Assembly: GCA_001797815.1 (NCBI GenBank)
Contig: MGQK01000066.1
Coordinates: 11,264-19,673 of the forward strand
Direction: 5' to 3'
DNA: 8,410 nt
Source of the DNA: Deltaproteobacteria bacterium RBG_13_61_14
GTDB lineage: Bacteria > RBG-13-61-14
Shown here in pieces: positions 7,053-8,410 of the stretch (position 1 is its first letter; every line of letters starts with the position of its first letter). The notes under the pieces are model-generated. The model was not told where the DNA came from, made no database searches, and saw nothing but the letters and a program-made list of their open reading frames with translations. The position numbers and the translations under genes are program-made.

Positions 7053-7612
7053 AAGAAAAACTCGGCTCCGGCTTCCTGGCCACCAAGCTCGAGTTCTTCG
7101 TCAACTGGGCGCGCAAGTTCTCGCTCTTCCAGTATCCCTTTATCACCGCCTGCTGCGGCATGGAATTCATGAGCACCATGTGCGCGCACTACGACCTGGC
7201 CCGCTTCGGCGCCGAATTTCCCCGCTTCACCCCCCGGCAGGCCGACTTCCTGATCGTGGTCGGCACCATCTCCCATAAACTGGCCCCGGTGCTGCGCCGG
7301 GTTTACGAGCAGATGTGCGAGCCCAAGTGGGTGATCGCCTTCGGCGGCTGCGCCTCCTGCGGCGGGCCTTACGATAACTATGCCACCCTGCAGGGGGTGG
7401 ACCGGATCATCCCGGTGGACGTGTATATCCCGGGTTGCCCGCCCCGGCCGGAGATGGTGCTGGACGGGTTGATCCGGCTGCAGGAAAAGATCCAGAAGTC
7501 GAAGCTCGGCGACGACAGCCGGCAGCGGCAATACGAAGAAGCCTTGGCCCAGGCGATCCGGGAATGGAAAGGGCCGAAAGTGGAGGTTCCCAATCTTCGT
7601 CCGGGGTGGTAG
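7043..7612 (+). CDS. nuoB: NADH-quinone oxidoreductase subunit B (cluster N2 subunit)
   Basis: A 189-residue peripheral-arm subunit of complex I that holds the last iron-sulfur cluster, N2, and passes electrons to quinone. The four N2 ligands can be seen: the adjacent Cys37-Cys38 in TACCGMEFM, Cys103 in GGCASCGG and Cys132 in PGCPPRPE. The blocks YDLARFGAE, RQADFLIVVGTISHKLAP and QGVDRIIPVDVYIPGC are standard. Extra cysteines (47, 92, 106) are outside the ligand set; the CGMEFM and MCEPKWV forms resemble Desulfobacterota-type NuoB rather than the E. coli type, judged from memory. The tail after residue 150 is a charged helix. The gene overlaps nuoA by ten bases and has a strong AAGGAG site. 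Normally nuoC follows directly; here 305 bases intervene, containing two small reading frames. Confidence 0.97.
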   Translation: MGLEEKLGSGFLATKLEFFVNWARKFSLFQYPFITACCGMEFMSTMCAHYDLARFGAEFPRFTPRQADFLIVVGTISHKLAPVLRRVYEQMCEPKWVIAFGGCASCGGPYDNYATLQGVDRIIPVDVYIPGCPPRPEMVLDGLIRLQEKIQKSKLGDDSRQRQYEEALAQAIREWKGPKVEVPNLRPGW

Positions 7613-7618
7613 GGTCGA

Positions 7619-7626
7619 GGGAAGGG
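7619..7626 (+). promoter_or_regulatory. Ribosome binding site in front of the NuoC-like leader frame
   Basis: GGGAAGGG eight bases before the TTG at 7635. The two genes that follow (small lysine-rich gene, nuoC) have no comparable site and start by ATGA overlap, so this may be the entry point for ribosomes for all three frames. Confidence 0.5.
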
Positions 7627-7634
7627 TTTTAATT

Positions 7635-7697
7635 TTGAGCAAGGAAGCTCTGGATAAGCTATTAAATAAAGTGATCTCAAGTGGTGGCCGGCCATGA
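7635..7697 (+). CDS. 20-codon frame repeating the start of NuoC (leader or remnant)
   Basis: A TTG start at 7635 opens a 20-codon frame ending in TGA at 7695-7697. Its first residues, SKEALDKLLNK after the start, match NuoC's SKEVLDKLLAK at nine of eleven positions, then similarity stops (VISSGGRP against FPDAVVSH). Several of the matching codons differ synonymously, which suggests an old duplication or selection on the peptide rather than a fresh copy. A good ribosome binding site, GGGAAGGG (7619-7626), lies eight bases upstream, better than that of the present nuoC. The stop overlaps the ATG of the following small gene (ATGA). It may be the original nuoC 5' end cut off by arrival of the small gene, or a leader peptide that couples translation. 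Whether it is translated is not known. Confidence 0.55.
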   Translation: MSKEALDKLLNKVISSGGRP

Positions 7698-7699
7698 GC
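7691..7699 (+). repeat. Direct repeat copy 1 at the small-gene start
   Basis: GCCATGAGC is repeated exactly at 7915-7923, 224 bases on. The two copies bracket the small gene at its start and at the nuoC start. They may be an insertion footprint or simply two similar ATG contexts. Confidence 0.5.
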
Positions 7700-7921
7700 G
7701 TCAAAGCCGTTGAGATGGTGCGGAAAATTCGGGATCAAATTTACGAGGAGATCAAAGACCTCTCGGTAGAAGAACAGATGGAGTTTTATCGAAAGGGGTC
7801 AGAAGAACTCCAAAAATTATTGAAAAAAAAAGGGATGGCTGAAGAAGCCAGCAAAAAGACGTCCCAAGAAGATGGAAAACAAAAAAGCGAAATCAGCGCG
7901 CGCGAGCGAAAAGCGCCATGA
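7694..7921 (+). CDS. Small charged hypothetical protein inside the nuo operon
   Basis: A 75-residue protein, cytosolic by composition, with no membrane segment. The N-terminal part (VEMVRKIRDQIYEEIKDLS, then VEEQMEFYRKGSEELQKLL) looks like two amphipathic helices; the C-terminal third is lysine/glutamate/serine-rich and probably disordered. The first half resembles, from memory, a group of short proteins of the pattern MVR.IRD.IYEE.K..S.EE...Y....E found near toxin-antitoxin loci, but no partner toxin is present, so no function is assigned. It starts at an ATGA overlap with the 20-codon NuoC-like frame and ends at an ATGA overlap with nuoC. It is visibly richer in A than its neighbours (runs of A around 7820-7890), which fits recent acquisition. 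It is not a known complex I subunit. Confidence 0.65.
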   Translation: MSVKAVEMVRKIRDQIYEEIKDLSVEEQMEFYRKGSEELQKLLKKKGMAEEASKKTSQEDGKQKSEISARERKAP

Positions 7922-7923
7922 GC
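7915..7923 (+). repeat. Direct repeat copy 2 at the nuoC start
   Basis: Second GCCATGAGC, spanning the ATGA overlap of the small gene stop and the nuoC start. Confidence 0.5.
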
Positions 7924-8410
7924 AAAGAAGTTCTCGATAAATTGTTGGCCAAGTTCCCGGACGCGGTGGTGAGCCACCACGCTCACCACGGCGACGAGAC
8001 CGCCTTGATCAAGCGCGAGCGCCTGCTCGAGGTGATGCGCTGGCTGCGGGACGAGTGCGCCTTTGAGATGCTCATGGACCTGACCGCGGTGGACTACTTG
8101 GGGGAGACCCCCCGTTTTGAGGTGGTCTATCACCTGAAGAGCCTGTCCAAAAACTACCGGCTTCGGGTCAAGGCGCGGGTGCCGGAGGACGACCCGACCC
8201 TTGCTTCGCTGACCCCGCTCTGGAAGGGGGCCAACTGGTTCGAGCGCGAATGCCACGAGTTTTACGGGATCCGGTTCCAGGGGCATCCGGACCTGCGTCC
8301 GTTGCTGTTGTATCCCGAGTTCAAGGGTTATCCGTTGCGCAAAGATTATCCGCTCGATGGCCGCCAGCCCCGGCTCCCGCTGATCGCGCCGGAAGGGAAG
8401 CGGTTTCCGC
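7918..8410 (+). CDS. nuoC: NADH-quinone oxidoreductase subunit C (partial, 3' end outside)
   Basis: The first 164 residues of the 30-kDa peripheral-arm subunit of complex I, which packs against NuoD and NuoB; it holds no cluster itself. Family blocks: DLTAVDYLG, PRFEVVYHL, SKNYRLRVKARVPEDDP, then SLTPLWKGANWFERE and YGIRFQGHPDLRPLLL, ending in GYPLRKDYP. In the ERE..D..G signature the usual Asp is Glu here (ERECHEFYGI), a small departure. The frame is open to the window edge, so one cannot tell whether it ends soon, as a separate NuoC, or continues as a NuoCD fusion. The ATG at 7918 overlaps the small gene stop (ATGA), and no clear ribosome binding site precedes it, so translation probably depends on ribosomes leaving the upstream frame. 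The N-terminus is repeated in the 20-codon frame at 7635-7697. Confidence 0.93.
   Translation, partial: MSKEVLDKLLAKFPDAVVSHHAHHGDETALIKRERLLEVMRWLRDECAFEMLMDLTAVDYLGETPRFEVVYHLKSLSKNYRLRVKARVPEDDPTLASLTPLWKGANWFERECHEFYGIRFQGHPDLRPLLLYPEFKGYPLRKDYPLDGRQPRLPLIAPEGKRFP

Follow-up and report, generated by a model that had tools for sequence, protein, structure and literature searches.

An orphan antitoxin-type gene between two copies of the nuoC start in a deltaproteobacterial complex I operon

In the window (the whole 8,410-nucleotide stretch of DNA analysed here), the start of nuoC is present twice, and a small antitoxin-type gene without a partner lies between the two copies (Table 1). The explanation that we favour, with a probability of roughly two in three, is that a PIN-type toxin-antitoxin cassette, or the antitoxin gene alone, inserted into the nuoC 5' end in this lineage, that a second start kept nuoC working and that the old start, now a short leader frame, probably loads ribosomes. 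Such an insertion would have left two nuoC starts. The original, with its ribosome site, start codon and approximately 11-20 codons, would remain upstream as a truncated and partly frameshifted remnant, and the second, joined by an ATGA overlap to the end of the antitoxin gene, would yield the complete nuoC. We infer both this direction of events and the loss of the toxin. The second start may have come from a large duplication when the insert arrived, from recombination with a diverged donor or from an element directed at the nuoC 5' end.

Table 1. Features at the nuoB-nuoC junction (window positions)
Feature	Position	Strand	Evidence or remark
nuoB (complex I subunit B), intact, 189 aa	7043-7612	+	Pfam PF01058 (E-value: 9e-27), NCBIfam nuoB
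Ribosome-binding site GAGGGAAGGG before leader	7617-7626	+	sequence; predicted pairing -6.7 kcal/mol
Leader frame, 20 codons	7635-7697	+	its initial 11-12 codons repeat the nuoC start in diverged form
Probable extension of the nuoC repeat, out of frame	7669-7693	+	matches 7951-7975
Orphan antitoxin-type gene, 75 aa	7694-7921	+	homologues immediately follow PIN toxin genes
Second (working) copy of the nuoC start	7918-7953	+	ATG overlaps antitoxin stop; predicted pairing -2.2 kcal/mol
nuoC, running beyond the window	7918-8409	+	Pfam PF00329 (E-value: 3e-46)

Beyond the window, nuoC is followed by nuoD and further nuo genes whose frames, as read from their translations, are open. The same genome carries a second, diverged nuo set (L091, G000:C53:85500-91500), the NuoB of which is 52% identical to that of the window. 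The C-terminus of the window's NuoB (7510-7612) is approximately 30 residues longer than that of a relative from the same order (G001).

The leader frame begins with a TTG codon at 7635 and ends with a TGA codon at 7695-7697. Its residues SKEALDKLLNK correspond to SKEVLDKLLAK at the start of nuoC, with nine of 11 identical (BLOSUM62 score 40), and when the two start codons are aligned 24 of the first 36 bases match. The base differences are distributed as 2, 2 and 7 over the first, second and third codon positions (7/11 at the third), and six of the nine shared residues are written with different codons. The copies are offset by 283 bases. In random DNA of the local composition, the exact chance of at least nine matches in 11 at this register is 4e-10, and among 10,949 candidate gene starts taken from other loci not one had as many as six. 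A pattern fitting both copies with up to three mismatches was found at only two sites in the 4.7 Mb genome, which are these two copies. The duplication of the nuoC start described in the initial annotation is thereby confirmed, and the coordinates it gave for the leader, the small gene and nuoC are all correct. Short helices rich in K, E and L are frequent at N-termini, and there is a weak resemblance between the sequence just upstream of the antitoxin gene and a toxin gene 3' end; it could accordingly be argued that two K/L-rich N-termini are alike by chance and that the leader is spurious or belongs to the antitoxin cassette. This is very improbable given the in-register probability and the control starts, on which we reject it, and intact cassettes have a PIN gene at that place and no such peptide. 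The leader was also considered as a copy from the genome's second nuoC (on C53), but that NuoC begins MATPAEIAERVQAQF and the pattern search returned no third site.

The protein likeness between leader and nuoC ends at codon 11. At the DNA level the repeat probably runs on, out of frame, for approximately 25 bases up to the ATG of the small gene: after a one-base indel, 15 of 25 bases match the corresponding nuoC bases, which is moderate evidence (P = 0.005 by shuffling and 0.010 against real 25-mers), and read in nuoC's frame the stretch carries a TGA. If this continuation is accepted, the upstream copy would be a frameshifted fragment of approximately 20 codons reaching the antitoxin ATG. 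The competing proposal that the 20 bases before this ATG are a remnant of a toxin gene 3' end is weak (P = 0.03-0.24 with the closest loci) and is the poorer of the two readings; no statistically secure trace of a toxin gene was found in the window.

The 75-aa protein has no significant match in Pfam, NCBIfam, PADLOC or PHROGs. Searches of genomes did identify homologues (E-values: 1e-11 to 1e-5), a profile search added more, and at most of the loci the gene lies directly behind a PIN-domain gene, usually overlapping it. Such a PIN gene is directly upstream in L086, L087, L088, L104, L105, L108, L111, L112, L114 and L117; the assignment is based on sub-threshold matches to Pfam PIN_3/PIN (E-values: 3.5e-5 to 6e-3) together with the typical start IYxDTSVxGG. 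An intact PIN-antitoxin pair whose second gene is homologous to the 75-aa protein is also present elsewhere in the same genome (C109). The window's small gene thus resembles the second gene of PIN (VapC-like) type II modules, in which the toxin gene comes first, but it differs from them in having no adjoining toxin and in lying within the nuo operon, with a remnant nuoC start before it and nuoC behind it. No PIN reading frame was found beside it, where it is preceded by nuoB and the 20-codon frame. Because it is homologous to second genes and lacks an adjacent PIN toxin, we classify it as an orphan antitoxin-type gene rather than a module, the putative antitoxin activity being suggested by gene order. 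Orphan antitoxins are partnerless genes that have been proposed to be decayed modules or anti-addiction genes (review, PMC7354431). The absence of a partner is common to these and to the gene described here, which is unlike them in being embedded in a housekeeping operon, at the translation start of a core gene.

The small gene looks foreign: its GC3 is 0.49 (0.43 for the leader) versus 0.84-0.85 for nuoA, nuoB and nuoC, and a profile along the sequence shows a break in base composition at the insert. No homologues of the protein were found in plasmids, phages or viral contigs. Derivation of the gene from a duplicated nuoC is ruled out by its homology to the PIN-linked antitoxins.

Loss of the toxin appears to be recurrent in this antitoxin family. 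In L085 (1450-1665) the toxin is cut to its first 14 codons, MKQRIYIDTSVVGG, ahead of a retained antitoxin, in L106 (1460-1662) to a short tail comprising its last codons, again with the antitoxin retained, and in L118 (1122-1662) an N-terminal toxin fragment accompanies the antitoxin. At L115 no detectable PIN match remains. The family shows other arrangements as well. L086 (791-1692) has a single PIN toxin gene followed by two tandem, differing antitoxin-type genes that are approximately 51% identical. In L104 and L105, at the 3' end of the PIN gene (approximately 1480-1500), CCAAGGGAGGTG has a dual use: it codes for SPREV, the conserved C-terminus of the toxin, and it serves the overlapping antitoxin gene as a strong ribosome site.

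Comparison within the order covered two other genomes (G001 and G002), none being available from the family or genus. As the nuoB and nuoC matches in G002 are too distant for an orthologous copy, G001 (NuoB 65% identity) is the only informative same-order relative. In G001 the small gene is absent and nuoC has one start: nuoB ends in ...QKYRVLEQK, and the TGA stop that follows overlaps ATGAGCCAGG to give MSQAVLDQLKGRFGEAV, an ATGA joint. At approximately 60 other nuoB-nuoC loci from many phyla, the gap between the two genes is nearly always less than 100 bases. Because G001 lacks the insert and nuoB-nuoC gaps are tight elsewhere, we regard the insert as derived in this lineage. No second genome carrying the insertion was found among the relatives compared, and a search of the literature for inserts at the nuoB-nuoC junction returned nothing relevant. 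The initial annotation had proposed that the small gene arrived by insertion, and the empty site in G001, the approximately 60 tight junctions and the foreign-looking gene of a toxin-antitoxin family support this account. It had further expected relatives without the small gene to have one nuoC start behind a ribosome site of the GGGAAGGG type; the single start was found in G001, but the ribosome site there is GGAG, inside the end of nuoB.

Antitoxin genes are frequent island cargo, and the arrangement could be the trace of an integrative element with the nuoC 5' end as its target, in the way that dusA islands target dusA, with most of the element later deleted and the antitoxin gene left behind. 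The incoming, recoded nuoC start would then have replaced the original, which would be the left-hand remnant. This would account for imperfect repeats and synonymous differences even if the copies are not very old and the peptide is not selected, and it fits a repeat matching at 24/36 bases with 7/11 differences at third codon positions. In dusA islands, whose flanking repeats are imperfect, island sequence replaces the 5' end of the gene and the original end remains at the opposite side (PMC4482086). The locus described here bears the same imprint, in that the insert, at the 5' end of a gene, lies between imperfect direct repeats and a leftover original end stands beside a replaced one, but it differs in that there is no integrase or island and the copies are only 283 bases apart. 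Between the copies there is just the antitoxin gene, with no integrase or other cargo, and no element was found at nuoC in the approximately 60 other nuoB-nuoC loci. Since no integrase remains, we retain an element targeting the nuoC 5' end as an alternative to the favoured explanation, although we consider it unlikely.

In the favoured explanation, entry of a cassette or a lone antitoxin gene, the leader would also have a role in translation, for which the ribosome sites and overlaps make a plausible case. Predicted anti-Shine-Dalgarno pairing was -6.7 kcal/mol for the leader TTG, -6.0 kcal/mol for the antitoxin gene and -2.2 kcal/mol for nuoC, so the leader has the strongest ribosome site of the three starts (core GGGAAGGG, 7619-7626) and nuoC has no good one. 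These energies bear out the earlier observation that the first copy keeps a good ribosome site and the real nuoC does not. The leader TGA overlaps the ATG of the small gene (7694), and the TGA of the small gene (7919-7921) overlaps the ATG of nuoC (7918), each as ATGA; the reported linkage of the three frames by such overlaps therefore holds, and nuoB is separated from the leader by 22 bases with no ATGA link. A ribosome site, overlapping stop and start codons and a weak downstream site are thus all found, as in coupled leaders. Translational coupling works best over short distances (PMC12548453). The present arrangement is like the coupled overlapping genes of that study in its short distance or overlap and weak downstream ribosome site, and unlike them in that the first frame is itself a piece of the start of the last gene. 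Ribosomes would load at GAGGGAAGGG and the TTG, terminate at the first ATGA and re-initiate on the antitoxin gene, whose own moderate ribosome site may be an additional entry point; they would end the antitoxin gene at the second ATGA and then re-initiate on nuoC. The displaced old start would in this way probably feed ribosomes to both the antitoxin gene and nuoC, as judged from sequence features. A TTG is a weaker start than ATG, which counts against the favoured explanation. A search for an RNA element, promoter or unusual fold gave no Rfam match, no promoter-like site and a fold z of -1.5. The suggestion that the ribosome site was duplicated before nuoC as well is unsupported (local match P = 0.5-0.66).

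The initial annotation also raised the possibility that the peptide itself is kept, and this was not established. Under such a proposal the leader would be selected, for example as a ribosome-pausing or regulatory peptide, and function would maintain its likeness to the NuoC N-terminus. The use of different codons at six of the nine conserved residues agrees with this, as does a likelihood ratio of 4.2 for constraint on both copies in a two-rate model, but we consider it rather improbable for four reasons. First, the ratio is weak, as it concerns 11 codons that were noticed for looking conserved. Second, 7/11 third-position differences are unremarkable (P = 0.38) if half of the changes fall to the constrained nuoC. 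Third, the likeness stops at codon 11 and the remainder of the copy appears to be frameshifted, with a stop in nuoC's frame. Fourth, if an incoming element brought a recoded 5' end, the same pattern would be expected without selection on the leader. A more far-reaching scenario, in which a mobile PIN-antitoxin element is specific for the 5' end of a complex I gene and brings a recoded nuoC start with it, so that a selected leader is left behind and NuoC synthesis is coupled to antitoxin synthesis, is speculative and in our view highly doubtful.

The locus is an evolutionary scar with an identified inserted gene and not a new kind of system. It can be read as a fossil of a foreign gene entering a core respiratory operon without breaking it, and the cell seems to have kept nuoC working through a rebuilt second start. 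The likely route is that a second start was made while the old one stayed, with its ribosome site, ahead of the foreign gene, which translation can cross by way of the overlaps. The locus also points to a small antitoxin-type family that lies behind PIN toxins in several lineages, has no significant match in the family libraries searched and appears to have lost its toxin repeatedly.
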